64,000 nt of DNA from Reichenbachiella faecimaris (GTDB lineage: Bacteria; Bacteroidota; Bacteroidia; Cytophagales; Cyclobacteriaceae): positions 186,001 through 250,000 of the forward strand of contig NZ_FWYF01000005.1 of NCBI RefSeq assembly GCF_900176375.1, written 5' to 3'. Positions 2,509 to 52,610 of this stretch are shown here, in pieces; position 1 is the stretch's first letter, and each line of letters starts with the position of its first letter. The notes under the pieces are model-generated. The model was given only the letters and a program-made list of their open reading frames with translations. It had not been told where the DNA came from and ran no database searches. The position numbers were made by a program, and so were the translations under genes.

Positions 2509-3270
2509 CTATATTGGTTGATAATCAGCAGGTTTTGAAAGAATTCTATTTCTATTTATCGCGTGACTAAACTTCATTGAATTAAAGAATTTGTAATACA
2601 TCATGCGCATGAATTCCTTTTTATCTACTCCTCCAGCCCTAAAGGCTCTTCCATGACCCAGCCAAATGGCATGAATTGTCCCAAAGAACAGTATACTATA
2701 GCCTGCAATGCTAAAGGCCCTGCTGTAAAAAGACTTTTTTTCAAAAATTTGGTGTAACCTTTCATTTTGAAACTTAATATGGTGGGCTTCATCAATAAGT
2801 ATATCTCTACAAATGGATTTAAGTAATTTGCAATTGGTTGCGTCATGAAGTGCCTGGTAAAAAATTTGAGCTGCGCTTTCAACAATTATTACTGAAATTG
2901 TCCAAAGCTCCATGCTCGTGTTGAAATATCTTATTTTTCGAAATAGCGTATCGCCCCAATCCTTTTTCAGTTTCTTTTCTCCTATCAACTCGATGTAATT
3001 CCCCAAGTTTCGACCATGTTTTTGCTCTTCCTTAATGAAGAGCTTCACTGCGTAAGGATAGTCTTTGTCCTTAATGTTTTTTGAGTATTTATTTGCCGCT
3101 GCCAGTAAATGTTTGCCATCACTTGTTTCACCTAATTGCCAGGCTTTCAACGAATAAATGATTTTGTCTTTTTCTTGACTACTCAGTGTAGGGTTTTGAC
3201 TCCAATCTACTCGATTCAAGGTGAGGTTATGCTTGAAATGGTTTCGCCAGAATTTTGAGCTATGTATCAT
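2509..3270 (-). CDS. ferritin-like diiron domain protein
   Basis: A 253-residue largely helical protein with the spaced E-x-x-H pairs of ferritin-like four-helix bundles: KEEQKHGRN near residue 85 and IDEAHHIKFQN near residue 160. Such residues ligate a diiron centre in rubrerythrin and related oxidases. A hydrophobic stretch (IAGYSILFFGTIHAIWLGHG, about residues 190-210) suggests membrane association or a buried helix. I cannot assign a substrate. It could be a diiron oxygenase or a ferritin-like stress protein. It is monocistronic and convergent with the cold-shock gene. Confidence 0.6.
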   Translation of the reverse strand: MIHSSKFWRNHFKHNLTLNRVDWSQNPTLSSQEKDKIIYSLKAWQLGETSDGKHLLAAANKYSKNIKDKDYPYAVKLFIKEEQKHGRNLGNYIELIGEKKLKKDWGDTLFRKIRYFNTSMELWTISVIIVESAAQIFYQALHDATNCKLLKSICRDILIDEAHHIKFQNERLHQIFEKKSFYSRAFSIAGYSILFFGTIHAIWLGHGRAFRAGGVDKKEFMRMMYYKFFNSMKFSHAINRNRILSKPADYQPI

Positions 3271-47864: not shown

Positions 47865-48248
47865 ATGGAAAAGTCAGACAAGGAATGGAAAAAAAGTCTT
47901 TCAGAAGAACAATACTACATTCTCAGGCAGAAAGGAACTGAAAGACCATTTACTGGCCAGTACAATGACCACAAAGAAGAAGGCAGGTATCTTTGTGCAG
48001 GTTGCCAGCAGGAGCTTTTCGAATCAGATGCTAAGTTTGATTCAGGCTGTGGGTGGCCAAGTTTTGACCAATCAATTGATAAAACTGCAGTAAAGGAATC
48101 TTTCGACAAATCTCATGGGATGATGCGTACAGAAATTACCTGCTCAAGCTGTGGTGGACACTTGGGACATGTATTCAATGATGGCCCCACAGAAACAGGT
48201 CAACGATATTGTATCAATTCTGTAGCCCTGAATTTCACCAAAAAATAG
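47865..48248 (+). CDS. msrB: peptide-methionine (R)-S-oxide reductase
   Basis: A 127-residue MsrB that reduces methionine-R-sulfoxide in proteins. The zinc site uses two Cys pairs, CAGC (in [11 protein letters not shown]) and CSSC (in [14 protein letters not shown]). The catalytic Cys116 is in [21 protein letters not shown] is the other strong signature. Full length for a single-domain MsrB, with no signal peptide. It is the last gene of a short operon and is spaced 2 bases after the outer-membrane barrel. Confidence 0.96.
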
Positions 48249-48307: not shown

Positions 48308-49501
48308 ATGAAAGACGTCATTGTAATAGGAGGAGGGATTGTTGGATTGGCAACTGCTTGGCAAATCAAACAGCAATCTCCAGATCTTACCCTTACTATA
48401 CTAGAAAAAGAAGACGGTCCAGCACGGCACCAGACTGGAAACAACAGTGGTGTCATTCACTCCGGACTATATTATAAACCTGGCAGTCTCAAGGCCACCA
48501 ATTGTATCAAAGGGTATGATTTGATGCTGGATTTTTGCAGAAAAGAAGAGGTTGATTTTGATCTCTGTGGAAAAGTGGTGGTGGCCACAGATGATCATGA
48601 AATCCCGTATTTGGAAACTTTGTTTGCAAGAGGAGAGCAAAATGGATTGACCAATATGAAATGGTTGACGCCTGAAGAAATAAAAGAGCACGAACCTTAT
48701 GTGTCTGGAGTCAAAGGTATTTATGTGCCACAAACTGGAATTATAGATTACAAGGAGGTATGCAAGAAGCTAGAAAGCAAACTGCTCGAAGCAGGTGTAG
48801 CGATCTTCTACAATGAAAAAGTGACCAGAGTCAATCATCAGGGTTCGGCTAGTGAGGTAATAACTACCAACAACGAATACAAGGGCAAATTGATTGTAAA
48901 CTGTGCAGGTCTATACTCGGACAAAGTATCAAAAATGACCCCACTAAAGCCAGATCTTAAAATTGTTCCGTTTCGAGGAGAATATTATCAACTCAAAGAA
49001 TCAAGCAAGCATCTGGTCAAGAACTTAATATACCCAGTACCTGATCCTAATTTTCCATTCTTAGGTGTTCACTTTACCAGAATGATCAATGGTGGAGTAG
49101 AGGCAGGTCCAAATGCGGTATTGGCCTTTGCTCGTGAGGGCTATACCAAATCAGATATAAATATTCCCGAGCTATTCGAAACACTGACCTGGCCAGGCTT
49201 TCAGAAAGTAGCCATGAAATATTGGAAAACAGGATTTGGTGAGATGTACAGATCTTTTTCAAAAGCGGCATTTACAAAGGCATTACAAAAACTGATTCCA
49301 GATATTAGAGCATCTGATTTGGAAACTGGAGGGGCAGGAGTTCGTGCACAAGCGTGTGATCGATCAGGTGGATTACTTGATGACTTTCATATCCTGGAGA
49401 ATGATCATTTTGTGAATGTGTGCAATGCGCCATCACCAGCTGCTACGTCGTCATTGGCGATAGGCGAAGAGATTGCCAGTAGAGTAATAAAAAGATTCTG
49501 A
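48308..49501 (+). CDS. lhgO: L-2-hydroxyglutarate oxidase
   Basis: A 397-residue FAD-dependent oxidase oxidising L-2-hydroxyglutarate to 2-oxoglutarate. The FAD motif is VIGGGIVGLATAWQIK. LhgO/YgaF-type features include QTGNNSGVIHSGLYYKPGSL, KATNCIKGYDLM, VPFRGEYYQLKESSKHLV and the closing VCNAPSPAATSSLAIGEEI. It follows msrB by 60 bases and may be separately transcribed. Confidence 0.93.
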   Translation: MKDVIVIGGGIVGLATAWQIKQQSPDLTLTILEKEDGPARHQTGNNSGVIHSGLYYKPGSLKATNCIKGYDLMLDFCRKEEVDFDLCGKVVVATDDHEIPYLETLFARGEQNGLTNMKWLTPEEIKEHEPYVSGVKGIYVPQTGIIDYKEVCKKLESKLLEAGVAIFYNEKVTRVNHQGSASEVITTNNEYKGKLIVNCAGLYSDKVSKMTPLKPDLKIVPFRGEYYQLKESSKHLVKNLIYPVPDPNFPFLGVHFTRMINGGVEAGPNAVLAFAREGYTKSDINIPELFETLTWPGFQKVAMKYWKTGFGEMYRSFSKAAFTKALQKLIPDIRASDLETGGAGVRAQACDRSGGLLDDFHILENDHFVNVCNAPSPAATSSLAIGEEIASRVIKRF

Positions 49502-49672
49502 AATTGTTAATAACTGCAGCGTTTGATTACCAAAACGTTAAATAATTAGCAGTTGCATAATTTTTTTAATTAAAAATTATGAATTCATAAACTAATCTAA
49601 GAAACTTGCGTTGAAGAATTCAAAATTCAGACATTGAAAACAAAAAGTACCATAAACACAATTCAAAACGCG

Positions 49673-49735
49673 ATGATGGCATGTTGTTGCTGTTGTGCAC
49701 CTAATTGGTGTTTATGGGAAAGTTATAATTTATAG
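49673..49735 (+). CDS. polycysteine leader peptide
   Basis: A 20-codon ORF reading MMACCCCCAPNWC followed by LWESYNL and a TAG stop. Five consecutive Cys codons (TGT TGT TGC TGT TGT, 49682-49696) and a sixth (49709-49711) are far beyond chance for a Cys-poor proteome. It ends 23 bases before the terminator and 81 bases before the cysteine-synthase-like gene. Such runs act as ribosome-stalling sensors for the scarce aminoacyl-tRNA. The peptide itself is probably unused. Confidence 0.85.
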   Translation: MMACCCCCAPNWCLWESYNL

Positions 49736-49758
49736 AAATATCATACGATAAAAATATA

Positions 49759-49793
49759 AAAAGGGCCTTTCTCAAATCGAGTAAGGCCTTTTT
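49759..49793 (+). terminator. attenuator terminator before the cysteine operon
   Basis: Bases 49759-49773 pair with 49779-49793 around AAATC, with one U.U mismatch and one G.U wobble. The GGCC core and closing T run are typical of rho-independent terminators. It lies between the leader stop and the first operon ATG (23 bases downstream), which is unusual for a plain terminator and points to attenuation. Confidence 0.88.
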
Positions 49794-49816
49794 CGTTATA
49801 AAACTCAGTATCTACA

Positions 49817-50746
49817 ATGGTAATCAGTCAAGAATCAGAAATTATTGAAAGTGTATTAGCTCTCGGAAATCACATCGGCCATACGCCTCTGTATGAGCTA
49901 CAGCACATTTCGCCAAAGAAGTCGGTACGCATATTTGCCAAGCTGGAATGGATGCAGTTTGGAGGAAGCGTAAAGGCAAGGCCAGCTTATAACATTATCA
50001 AGCAGGCGGTATTAAATGGCGAGTTAGGCAACGGAAAAATACTCTTAGATGCGTCTAGTGGCAACACGGCTATTGCTTATGCCACCATTGGTGCAAGACT
50101 AGGTATCCCTGTTACTATTTGTTTGCCAGAGAATGCTTCATGGGAACGTAAAATGCTTTTGAAAGGACTTGGCGTATCAATTGTGTATACCTCCAAATTT
50201 GGATCAACAGACGAAGCGCAAGAGAAGGCTTTGGAGCTTTATCAAAATGAACCAGACAAATATTTTCTGGCAGATCAATATGGCAACGAAAATAATTGGA
50301 AGGCACACTACGATACTACGAGTGAAGAAATCATATCTAAGGTGAATGGAAGTTTGACCCACTTTGTTACAGGCCTGGGAACGACAGGATCTTTTACTGG
50401 AATAAGTAAAAGATTGAAAGAAGTGAATGAGGGAATTACCACCATTGCCCTTCAGCCAGATGGTGCTTTGCACGGATTAGAAGGATGGAAAGACATGGAA
50501 ACGGCTAAGGTACCAGGCATTTATGATCCGTCATTGGCTGATCGATTTATGAATGTAGATACGTTTGATGCCTACGAAACACTGAAGCTAGCGGCAAAGA
50601 AAGAAGGTTTGATGATCAGTCCATCTGCTGCGGCTAACCTGAAGGGGGCTTTGCAACTGGCTGAAGAAATAGATGAGGGAGTTATTGTAACACTCTTTCC
50701 TGATAATGCAGAAAAGTATAGTGAAGTGATTAAGTCTTTGTTTTAA
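49817..50746 (+). CDS. cysM: cysteine synthase-like PLP enzyme (CysM type)
   Basis: A 309-residue fold-type II PLP enzyme. PLP Lys53 sits in GGSVKARPAYNI, where classical CysK/CysM have SVKDR. The phosphate loop is SSGNTAIAYA (S81-T84), and there is the glycine loop TGLGTTGSFTG. It is shorter at the C-terminus than CysK. Mycobacterial CysM transfers sulfur from thiocarboxylated CysO onto O-phosphoserine. The segment EGWKDMETAKVPGIYD resembles the CysM region ALRNMDEGFVPELYD that binds the phosphate. Its operon partners support this route, not the sulfide-dependent one. Preceded by the attenuator. Confidence 0.85.
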   Translation: MVISQESEIIESVLALGNHIGHTPLYELQHISPKKSVRIFAKLEWMQFGGSVKARPAYNIIKQAVLNGELGNGKILLDASSGNTAIAYATIGARLGIPVTICLPENASWERKMLLKGLGVSIVYTSKFGSTDEAQEKALELYQNEPDKYFLADQYGNENNWKAHYDTTSEEIISKVNGSLTHFVTGLGTTGSFTGISKRLKEVNEGITTIALQPDGALHGLEGWKDMETAKVPGIYDPSLADRFMNVDTFDAYETLKLAAKKEGLMISPSAAANLKGALQLAEEIDEGVIVTLFPDNAEKYSEVIKSLF

Positions 50747-50747
50747 A

Positions 50748-51173
50748 ATGAAGAAACAAATTCAAGTATCAGGAGACATTCTAGAAGAAATGCATCGTCA
50801 TGCGTTGTCAGATTTTCCTAACGAATGCGTGGGATTTTTCTATGGGAAATCTGAAGGAGATATTAAAACAGTCACTGAGTATGGCCCGTTAGAAAACAGT
50901 AAAGAAGGAGATCAACGCAGACGTTTTGAAGTCAATCCATTGGATTATATGAAGGCGGAGAAATATGCGTTGTCCAATCAGTTGGAACTTTTAGGAATTT
51001 ATCATTCTCATCCTTTGCATCCAGCTATCCCTTCAGAACACGACTTGAAGCAGGCAGTACCTTTTTTTTCGTACATTATTGCTTCAGTAAACGATACCAA
51101 AGTTGACAAGACCACGTCTTGGCAACTGAATGAAGAAAATCAATTTGAAGAAGAATTATTAAAGAGCAATTAA
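50748..51173 (+). CDS. JAMM/MPN+ metalloprotease (Mec-like)
   Basis: A 141-residue Zn-dependent peptidase with an intact JAMM motif: E26 in PNECVGFF, then HSHPLHPAIPSEHD (H86, H88, S96, D99). Bacterial relatives hydrolyse the isopeptide or peptide bond after the Gly-Gly of sulfur-carrier proteins. In mycobacteria Mec releases cysteine from CysO-Cys. Here it may also trim the two residues beyond the carrier's Gly-Gly. It starts one base after the CysM-like gene's stop (TAAAATG), so they are translationally close. Confidence 0.9.
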   Translation: MKKQIQVSGDILEEMHRHALSDFPNECVGFFYGKSEGDIKTVTEYGPLENSKEGDQRRRFEVNPLDYMKAEKYALSNQLELLGIYHSHPLHPAIPSEHDLKQAVPFFSYIIASVNDTKVDKTTSWQLNEENQFEEELLKSN

Positions 51174-51180
51174 TAGCATC

Positions 51181-51459
51181 ATGGCAAATATTATTATACC
51201 TACACCACTAAGAAAATTCACTAACAATCAAGCTTCAGTAGAATCTAATGGGGCTACTGTTCAGCAATCAGTTGAGGACTTGGCTAAACAATTTCCAGAT
51301 TTGAACAAACACATTTTTGATGCTGAGGGTAAGATTCGTCAGTTCATCAGAATCTATGTGGGAGACGAGGATATCAATGCCTTGGAAAATGAAAACACAA
51401 AGGTAGATGGTAGTTCAGTGATTAGCATCATACCTGCAATAGCAGGAGGCATCCAATAA
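51181..51459 (+). CDS. ThiS/MoaD-type sulfur carrier with C-terminal extension
   Basis: A 92-residue beta-grasp protein (MANIIIPTPLRKFTNNQ, then ATVQQSVEDLAKQFPDL, and RQFIRIYVGDEDI). The C-terminus reads SIIPAIAGG followed by Ile-Gln. Classical carriers end in Gly-Gly so that the E1 enzyme can adenylate the last Gly. The two added residues (91-92) would block this until removed. It follows the JAMM gene by 7 bases and precedes the E1-like gene by 11 bases. This is the CysO position in the mycobacterial-like set. Confidence 0.88.
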   Translation: MANIIIPTPLRKFTNNQASVESNGATVQQSVEDLAKQFPDLNKHIFDAEGKIRQFIRIYVGDEDINALENENTKVDGSSVISIIPAIAGGIQ

Positions 51460-51470
51460 AAAAAGGAACC

Positions 51471-52610
51471 ATGTCAGAAGTAAATTTTTCAAAAGAAGAG
51501 CTCGAACGATATAGTCGTCATTTGATTATTCCAGAGTTCAATATAGAAGGTCAAAGAAGACTTAAAGAAGCCAAAGTACTCGTGGTTGGCACAGGTGGTT
51601 TGGGAAGCCCACTACTCCTATATCTAACAGCCGCTGGTGTGGGCAATATTGGCATCCTTGATTTTGACGTGGTAGATGATAGCAATTTGCAGCGTCAGGT
51701 GTTGTTTACAGTAGATGATGTAGGAAAACCAAAATCTGTGGCGGCAAAAGCTCGATTGGAAAAATTGAATCCACATGTGAATTTCACTGTTCACAACACG
51801 ATGCTGACCTCTGAGAATGCATTGGATATAGTGAAGGACTACGACGTAGTAGCTGATGGTACAGACAATTTCCCGACAAGGTATCTGGTAAATGATGCCT
51901 GTGTAATTCTTGATAAAGTAAATGTATACGCGTCCATTTTTAGATTTGAAGGACAGGTTTCGGTATTTAACTATAAAAATCAAGAGGGAGAATATGGACC
52001 ACATTATCGTGACCTATTTCCTACACCACCACCTCCAGGGTTAGTACCTAGTTGTGCTGAAGGAGGGGTAATTGGTGTGCTTCCTGGAATCATTGGATCC
52101 TTGCAGGCCAATGAAGTACTCAAGGTGGTAAGTGGAGTTGGAGACCCATTGGCTGGTAGATTGTTTTTGTTTGACGCTTTGTCTTTCGAGACTCGTGTGA
52201 TGAAAATTCACAAAAACAAAAATACTCCTGCTGTAACTGAATTAATAGATTATGAAATATTCTGTGGATTAGGCGAAAAGGAAGAGGAGCAAGTAGTCAA
52301 TGAGATTACAGTAGATGAATTGAGTCAATGGAAGGCCACTAAGAAAGATTTTCAACTCATTGATGTACGTGAAGCCTATGAATATGAAATCGCTAATCTA
52401 GAAGGAGAGCTGATTTCTTTAGGGGAAATAGCGGATCATGTAAATGACATTCGTTCTGATGTAGATGTGGTTGTGCATTGCCGAAGTGGCAAACGAAGTG
52501 CAGACGCGATCGTTCAATTGGAAAAGCTGGGTTTTAAAAACCTATACAATCTAAAAGGTGGAATTCTAGCCTGGGCAGATGAGTTAGACCCTGAAATGGC
52601 AAAATACTAA
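51471..52610 (+). CDS. moeZ: MoeZ-like E1 adenylyl/sulfurtransferase with rhodanese domain
   Basis: A 379-residue two-domain enzyme. The MoeB/ThiF E1 domain has GTGGLGSPLLLYLTAAGVG, the Arg of NLQRQVLF, DGTDNFPTRYLVND and C195 in VPSCAEGG. The C-terminal rhodanese domain (about residues 280-379) has catalytic C337 in HCRSGKRSA. The PTPPPPGLVPSCAEGGVIGV stretch and the FCG junction are nearly as in mycobacterial MoeZ. It adenylates the carrier C-terminus and delivers sulfur to form the thiocarboxylate. No Zn-binding CxxC pairs like those of E. coli MoeB are present. Confidence 0.92.
   Translation: MSEVNFSKEELERYSRHLIIPEFNIEGQRRLKEAKVLVVGTGGLGSPLLLYLTAAGVGNIGILDFDVVDDSNLQRQVLFTVDDVGKPKSVAAKARLEKLNPHVNFTVHNTMLTSENALDIVKDYDVVADGTDNFPTRYLVNDACVILDKVNVYASIFRFEGQVSVFNYKNQEGEYGPHYRDLFPTPPPPGLVPSCAEGGVIGVLPGIIGSLQANEVLKVVSGVGDPLAGRLFLFDALSFETRVMKIHKNKNTPAVTELIDYEIFCGLGEKEEEQVVNEITVDELSQWKATKKDFQLIDVREAYEYEIANLEGELISLGEIADHVNDIRSDVDVVVHCRSGKRSADAIVQLEKLGFKNLYNLKGGILAWADELDPEMAKY

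Follow-up and report, generated by a model that had tools for sequence, protein, structure and literature searches.

A putative trp-type attenuator with polycysteine leader before the cysM-like operon of Reichenbachiella faecimaris, and related leaders before sulfur genes in Bacteroidota

Introduction

Attenuators of the trp, his, and leu type consist of a leader ORF with codons for the end product, alternative stems, and a biosynthetic operon. Bacteroidota make little use of Shine–Dalgarno sequences. For Actinobacteria, the available part of one study describes polycysteine ORFs before cys operons without conserved terminator hairpins (Seliverstov 2005, PMC1262725), and the polycysteine leader of M. 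smegmatis (Canestrari 2020) is called translation attenuation in the section concerned of PMC13236596. The uORFC-8-2 motif, located before cysS in Rhodobacterales, is described as having Cys codons and a terminator (PMC8632094, motif description). In Flavobacterium psychrophilum, leader-peptide attenuation of amino-acid operons was suggested in general terms (PMC9723704, section on these operons), and in Bacteroides thetaiotaomicron, leader-peptide-like sORFs were suggested in a text whose accessible section does not name cysteine leaders (PMC7366714). The accessible portion of PMC4833913 does not mention cysteine. A 2010 survey stated, in the part available, that before its own find in Firmicutes no leader-peptide system was known beyond Proteobacteria and Actinobacteria (PMC2965389).

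In this study, we analyzed a 64-kb stretch of R. faecimaris DNA (the window, whose own positions are used as coordinates), in which a polycysteine leader ORF stands before a cysM-like operon, together with corresponding regions of other genomes. The elements found here resemble the trp/his/leu type in the end-product codons of the leader ORF, the stems 1:2, 2:3, and 3:4, and the biosynthetic operon on the 3' side, whereas they differ from it in that they are proposed to sense Cys, belong to a phylum with few Shine–Dalgarno sequences, and are sometimes tandem. As far as the available descriptions go, the actinobacterial and mycobacterial leaders are similar in that a small ORF with a Cys run stands ahead of sulfur genes; however, the mycobacterial leaders are described there as leaderless and as translation attenuators, while the present elements combine a terminator with an antiterminator strand that matches it, and the actinobacterial lack of conserved terminators does not extend to them. 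Compared by description, uORFC-8-2 is similar in the Cys codons of the uORF, the stem containing them, and the terminal stem with a U run, but it has two tandem Cys codons, belongs to alphaproteobacteria, and precedes a cysteinyl-tRNA synthetase gene instead of a CysM-like gene. The F. psychrophilum suggestion concerns the same phylum and amino-acid operons, and its section names no cysteine case. An initial annotation of the window had known of no established case in Bacteroidota. For cysteine, our searches of open-access papers, judged by titles and abstracts, likewise turned up no such attenuator in this phylum; leader-peptide attenuation in general has been suggested there, in the section of PMC9723704 on F. 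psychrophilum. The mechanism is already known; what is unusual here is the amino acid, the phylum, the tandem copies, and the recurrence before sulfur-assimilation genes.

Results

Leader ORF, stems, and operon in the window

The features of the locus are as follows.

49650–49663, + strand: segment 1, the 5' half of protector stem 1:2 (centroid fold, duplex energy)
49673–49735, + strand: leader ORF of 20 codons, MMACCCCCAPNWCLWESYNL (translation of the window)
49703–49717, + strand: portion of segment 2 pairing with segment 1 (centroid fold, duplex energy)
49715–49722, + strand: antiterminator strand of segment 2, UGGGAAAG, starting 18 nt past the fifth Cys codon
49759–49793, + strand: intrinsic terminator hairpin (3:4) with a short U tract (folding, hairpin search, shuffles)
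49767–49774, + strand: segment 3, the portion of the terminator 5' side pairing with segment 2, CUUUCUCA
49817–50746, + strand: first operon gene, CysM-like PLP enzyme of 309 aa (PF00291)
50748–51173, + strand: JAB/MPN metallopeptidase, Mec-like (PF14464)
51181–51459, + strand: ThiS/MoaD-like sulfur carrier, CysO-like (PF02597)
51471–52610, + strand: ThiF adenylyltransferase with rhodanese, MoeZ-like (domain and family matches)

When both strands of the window were scanned for TGY runs, a run of at least four codons was found only once, in the leader ORF at 49673–49735. Translation bore out the 20-codon leader of the initial annotation, with five Cys codons in a row (starting at 49682, 49685, 49688, 49691, and 49694) and a sixth at 49709–49711. 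The frame continues open on the 5' side to a TTG at 49634, and the leader frames of congeners are likewise open upstream, with TTG or GTG starts. Therefore, the true start may lie upstream of 49673. The stretch 49634–49672 encodes a peptide S-T-I/M-N/D-T common to the congeners, in which the Ser codon is AGT or TCT.

The best NCBIfam match of the CysM-like enzyme was cysM TIGR01138 with 265.9 bits; because this score is under the curated cut-off of 394.2, the name CysM rests on similarity. Its identity was 74% and 73% in the nearest named relatives, Reichenbachiella agariperforans and R. versicolor, respectively, and 98 and 94% in two further genomes of the same genus. We take the cysM-JAB-ThiS-ThiF operon to resemble CysM, Mec, CysO, and MoeZ of mycobacteria. 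Just 5' of the operon are an MsrB methionine sulfoxide reductase gene (47865–48248) and an L-2-hydroxyglutarate oxidase gene (48308–49501).

The three stems claimed for this region, 1:2, 2:3, and 3:4, all exist according to the centroid fold and the duplex energies. Stem 1:2 (49650–49663/49703–49717) has 14 pairs and one bulge in the centroid structure, and the duplex energy of its 10-pair core is −13.4 kcal/mol. Stem 2:3 (49716–49722/49767–49773) is GGGAAAG/CUUUCUC, with 7 pairs including one G-U and −5.8 kcal/mol, and it grows to 8 pairs with U49715–A49774. The terminator stem 3:4 (49759–49773/49779–49793) has −17.1 kcal/mol. The 161-nt stretch folded at −43.2 kcal/mol (z −4.1), which was equaled by 0 of 200 shuffles. 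This z comes largely from the terminator, because the portion 5' of the terminator folded no better than its shuffles (z −0.61). A simple terminator scanner (0 found) did not flag this terminator; a permissive hairpin search detected it, and none of 40 shuffled versions of the stretch gave one as good.

Taken alone, pairing 2:3 of the window did not rise above chance (z −0.68), being equaled in 23% of 1000 shuffles and in 25% in a separate run, and pairing 1:2 was borderline (z −1.71; 7% of shuffles as good). Stem 2:3 is weak, with −5.8 to −9.2 kcal/mol against −17.1 kcal/mol for the terminator, and stem 1:2 competes weakly. The window copy is among the weaker ones of the family. Nevertheless, chance is excluded for the window element, because its leader and stems recur in relatives.

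Conservation of the element before cysM

The cysM ortholog set (identity at least 55%, close congeners included) contained 27 distinct upstream regions. The initial annotation had proposed a search upstream of orthologous cysM operons, and Cys-rich leaders and terminators recur there: a run of at least three Cys codons was present in 23 of the 27 regions, and a hairpin with a T run lay 3' of the run in 23 of these 23, giving 27 run-plus-terminator elements altogether. Far from being absent in relatives, the leaders, the terminators, and both alternative stems recur and covary. Two tandem elements precede cysM in four loci (L041, L044, L070, and L092), and tandem copies were also seen at L138 and L216. 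No leader was found in 4 of the 27 regions (L038, L046, L069, and L072). In R. versicolor (L038, L062), cysM has no polycysteine leader, and the sulfite reductase (L227) has a short three-Cys leader.

The hairpin search is permissive and was therefore run on shuffles too. With 40 shuffles for each of 22 elements, none of the 880 matched the element's own hairpin, and a hairpin of −10 kcal/mol or lower was obtained in 25/880 shuffles versus 22/22 own terminators. The first set used for the swap, shuffle, and terminator tests held 22 of the 27 elements, the close relatives L032–L036 being dropped, and four of its terminator arms were placed by hand. For footprint and codon counts, 24 elements were used (L032, L033, and L035 dropped), and another set of 23 also lacked the second L044 copy.

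The specificity of the leader was counted over 33 loci and the window, as a short in-frame polycysteine ORF no more than 300 bases before a gene. Leaders with at least three Cys codons preceded 13/16 cysM genes (identity at least 50%), 1/12 more distant homologs (L081), and 2/210 other ORFs; with at least four, the counts were 10/16, 1/12, and 0/210, respectively. A chance TGY run is ruled out by this specificity for cysM and by the sole run in the window. The runs contained 92 TGT and 30 TGC codons, and 3/24 runs were of a single codon type; this mixture rules out a simple repeat as the source of the run. The peptide around the run is not conserved among cysM leaders, and leader length varies too. 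Relative to L031, an insertion past the run in L032 shifts the frame, and the leader still stops at a nearby stop codon.

At two loci, L182 and L183 (both on the minus strand, at about 1310), a polycysteine ORF precedes cysM with no recognizable intrinsic terminator, and these ORFs may work by another mechanism. Across an even phylum sample, CysM was found at E 1e-85 or better in 11/247 genomes, and a polycysteine run was present in 8 of the 11, own genome included and L182 and L183 among them. The Zixibacteriota record L081 (1298–1530) has a Cys4 leader, a terminator, and CGGAGAG/CTCTCCG strands (by eye), followed by a PLP-enzyme gene. Judged by this record, the putative attenuator design is not confined to Bacteroidota.

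Alternative pairings 2:3 and 1:2

A GGAAAGG-like strand that follows the run copies the 3' side of the terminator in most loci, which gives the CCTTTCC side two possible partners. The 2:3 pairing stretch starts 7–22 nt past the Cys run in the 27 elements. In the swap tests of the first set (n = 22), the native and swapped energies were −13.9 and −11.0 kcal/mol for 2:3 and −16.7 and −12.7 kcal/mol for 1:2, respectively (permutation p 5e-5 for each). The element's own 2:3 pairing exceeded the swap mean in 17/22 and its own 1:2 pairing was the stronger in 18/22, and the spacer control of the 1:2 test showed little effect (−6.5 vs −6.1). It had been regarded as a weak point that stems 1:2 and 2:3 share two bases. 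For the genus this is right, with an overlap of 2–3 bases in the window; across elements, however, the two stretches, unpaired flanks included, overlap in 21/22, and by at least 9 positions in 18/22.

The second set (n = 22) shared no element with the first. It comprised loci of sulfite reductase, cysK, sulfhydrylase, and further cysM genes plus a single rhodanese leader, hand-picked from polycysteine loci, several of which were found via a covariance model, R1, built on the first set. The close relatives L188, L210, and L214 were dropped, as were L191 (plus strand) and L182 (minus strand), which hold no proper element; the polycysteine loci left out include L187, L189, L207, L208, L241, L250, and L255. 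The swap tests gave −14.7 vs −10.6 for 2:3 and −20.2 vs −15.0 for 1:2 (both p 5e-5, n = 24 including two artefact rows). The up:spacer control was also significant in the swap test here (p 0.0003, n = 22), which we tentatively put down to the mixing of genomes of differing G+C, and for this reason we relied on the shuffle test instead.

In the dinucleotide-shuffle test, the mean z of 2:3 was −2.19 in the first set and −2.20 in the second, and 12/22 elements of each set reached p < 0.05 singly, while 10/22 per set failed at this threshold. For 1:2, the mean z values were −1.64 and −1.35, with 7/22 and 9/22 elements, respectively, at p < 0.05 singly. The four spacer controls (n 19–21) lay between −0.25 and +0.26. 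Among single elements, native 2:3 pairing was equaled or bettered by a share of shuffles amounting to 0.25 in the window, 0.68 in L042, 0.885 in the second L044 copy, and 0.235 in L073.

The leader strand covaries with an altered terminator at L040, L041, L044, and L086 and also at L017, L098, L110, and L200. For example, GGAAAGG/CCUUUCC is replaced by UAUCGG/CCGAUA in L044, AUGCGG/CCGCAU in L086, GUGUGAGAA/UUCUCACAC in L110, and CGGGAGA/UCUCCCG in L017.

Ribosome footprint model

The ribosome was modeled as a 30-nt mask on the transcript folded up to the 5' side of the terminator, so the values given are of equilibrium pairing only. In the first set (n = 24), the mean 2:3 probability was 0.42 in the free transcript; a ribosome stalled on the first Cys codon raised it to 0.76, and one at the stop codon lowered it to 0.15. 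The stalled value was above the stop value in 20/24 and above the free value in 19/24. In the second set (n = 22), the three means were 0.52, 0.63, and 0.17, respectively, and the stalled value was the higher in 18/22 and 16/22. The stall site and stop codon of the window fit the model. Its probabilities were 0.61 (free), 0.77 (stalled), and 0.00 (at the stop codon), which indicates that switching there depends mostly on the ribosome that has reached the stop codon.

Some leaders did not fit. In the congeners L034, L036, and L037, whose leaders end 9 nt past the run, a ribosome at the stop codon masks 0, 56, and 0% of segment 2, and the 2:3 probability remains 0.99, 0.68, and 0.82, respectively. 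In L017, the sulfite reductase leader of the same genome, 0% of segment 2 is covered at the stop codon and 2:3 is 0.80. The 2:3 probabilities at the stop codon of L186, L191, and L182 (plus strand) were 0.68, 0.80, and 0.83, respectively.

Leaders before other sulfur genes

The genome of the window has a second leader, MNKTTLNNISIMNICWMCCCCMLSYSGRYTFNELLKDRS (L017), with a terminator and the antiterminator pair CGGGAGA/UCUCCCG given above, before a gene of the sulfite/nitrite reductase family. Its best NCBIfam match was the NirA family, below the cut-off, and the two genes after it look like siroheme genes by eye; we read it as a sulfite reductase gene. Among relatives, the reductase gene was present in 35/59 genomes, and 20/30 upstream regions of these 35 relatives contained a short ORF with at least three Cys codons (Cys ORFs only, the doubtful L252 excluded). 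The reductase leader L243 had no terminator by eye. In the even phylum sample, the reductase was found in 42/247 genomes, with at least three consecutive TGY codons upstream in 7/42 and no such run in the other 35 (0/21 in family f25).

Before cysK, a run of at least three Cys codons was found in 6/26 genes and was absent from 20/26. Single leaders preceded an O-acetylhomoserine sulfhydrylase gene (L110) and a peroxiredoxin-cysM pair (L216, by eye). On the plus strand of L182, at about 2970–3200, a Met/Cys leader ending in MCCCMCMPRGSGTDMSK and a terminator precede a rhodanese gene (by eye); the cysM operon on the other side, from which this leader diverges, has a polycysteine ORF and no clear terminator.

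In the reductase leaders L233, L235, L236, and L243, a recurring R-x-A-C-W-F-W-C-C replaces the pure run, with synonymous codon changes; L233 and L235 read R-A-C-W-F-W-C-C, and L234 has AACWCC. The peptide itself may matter at these loci, possibly as an arrest peptide. On the minus strand of L101 (near base 1500 of the reverse complement), a branched-chain aminotransferase gene is preceded by a terminator and a short ORF rich in Ile and Val, IIVISIIIAVVI (by eye), in a frame that differs from the Cys one. This is likely to be an Ile/Val attenuator.

Other searches

Rfam gave 0 matches at the gathering score in the window (T-box, SAM riboswitch, and amino-acid leaders), and a riboswitch or known Rfam leader was rejected on this ground. 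Six sulfite reductase loci gave no match at E 0.1 either, and the best match of a further search, Thr_leader with 22.1 bits, was below the cut-off of 55. Covariance model R1 was used to find loci; its tallies of 210/395 and 76/98 genomes were not used as counts because many of its 59 loci (L093–L151) show no polycysteine ORF. A TTGCG/TTTGCG element lies 53–94 nt before the run in 9/24 elements, and we do not claim it as a shared promoter. The sigma-70 scan gave 1 site versus 2.1 expected.

Discussion

In this study, we believe, with a probability of roughly 0.85, that the window element is a ribosome-mediated (trp-type) transcription attenuator that reads charged Cys-tRNA. The basis for this reading is its sequence parts, their conservation, the matched alternative pairings, the geometry of the footprint model, which suits most but not all leaders, and the gene context; from these we infer translation of the leader, stalling, close coupling of ribosome and polymerase, and a response to cysteine. 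What speaks against it is the weak 2:3 stem of the window, the elements that singly fail the 2:3 shuffle test, the leaders whose stop codon does not suit the model (that of the genome's own sulfite reductase included), the cysM regions with no leader or no clear terminator, and the lack of a run before most reductase and cysK genes. When Cys-tRNA is scarce, the ribosome would stall on the Cys codons and keep stem 1:2 open, leaving segment 2 (UGGGAAAG) free. Free segment 2 would then pair with the terminator 5' side (2:3), no terminator would form, and the polymerase would enter cysM-JAB-ThiS-ThiF. With ample Cys-tRNA, translation would proceed to the leader stop codon, where the ribosome would cover segment 2, and terminator 3:4 would form. 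In many relatives, stem 1:2 would have the same outcome without a ribosome. The three-way logic of the trp type, as proposed in the initial annotation, gains its support from the family, in conservation, covariation, and the swap and shuffle tests: a Cys-rich leader, an intrinsic terminator, a covarying antiterminator, and a competing 1:2 stem are all found at this level.

Other explanations of the polycysteine ORF were considered. It might govern translation or Rho-dependent termination, as was proposed for mycobacteria, with the hairpins being incidental. Polycysteine leaders without conserved terminators are described in Actinobacteria (PMC1262725, available part), and the two distant cysM operons at L182 (minus strand) and L183 are of a similar kind, having polycysteine and no clear terminator. 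We consider this unlikely for the present element, since a hairpin with a T run follows in all 23 run-bearing cysM regions and is unmatched in 880 shuffles, and the 5' side of the terminator matches the leader strand. A different question is what stalls the ribosome. The nascent Cys-rich chain could do so, through oxidation, metal, sulfane sulfur, or action as an arrest peptide, and the RNA switch would be alike. The R-x-A-C-W-F-W-C-C-like peptide that recurs instead of a pure run in some sulfite reductase leaders would suit such a cause. In the cysM leaders, however, the Cys run recurs alone, the surrounding peptide does not, and the L032 insertion after the run shifts the frame relative to L031, and we think this cause quite improbable. 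That the product of the ORF is a small Cys-rich protein with a function of its own, binding metal or acting in redox, is in keeping with its shortness and six cysteines, but leader length and the sequence beyond the run vary while the RNA pairings are kept, which makes a functional protein very hard to accept.

Beyond the window, we are slightly inclined to believe that attenuators sensing Cys-tRNA make up a regulon widespread in Bacteroidota and extending to at least one Zixibacteriota record (L081), in which the same three-segment logic would govern sulfite reductase, cysteine synthase, and sulfur-carrier genes. These attenuators would be of separate origin from the actinobacterial polycysteine leaders that govern similar genes, and they would require ribosomes close behind RNA polymerase in a phylum that seldom uses Shine–Dalgarno sequences.

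If the element is a conserved attenuator, it would be a genetic readout of Cys-tRNA charging. Such an attenuator would also allow a test of whether the ribosomes of Bacteroidota keep close behind RNA polymerase, a requirement of trp-type attenuation. If a common origin is excluded, the likeness to the actinobacterial polycysteine ORFs would represent convergent regulation.
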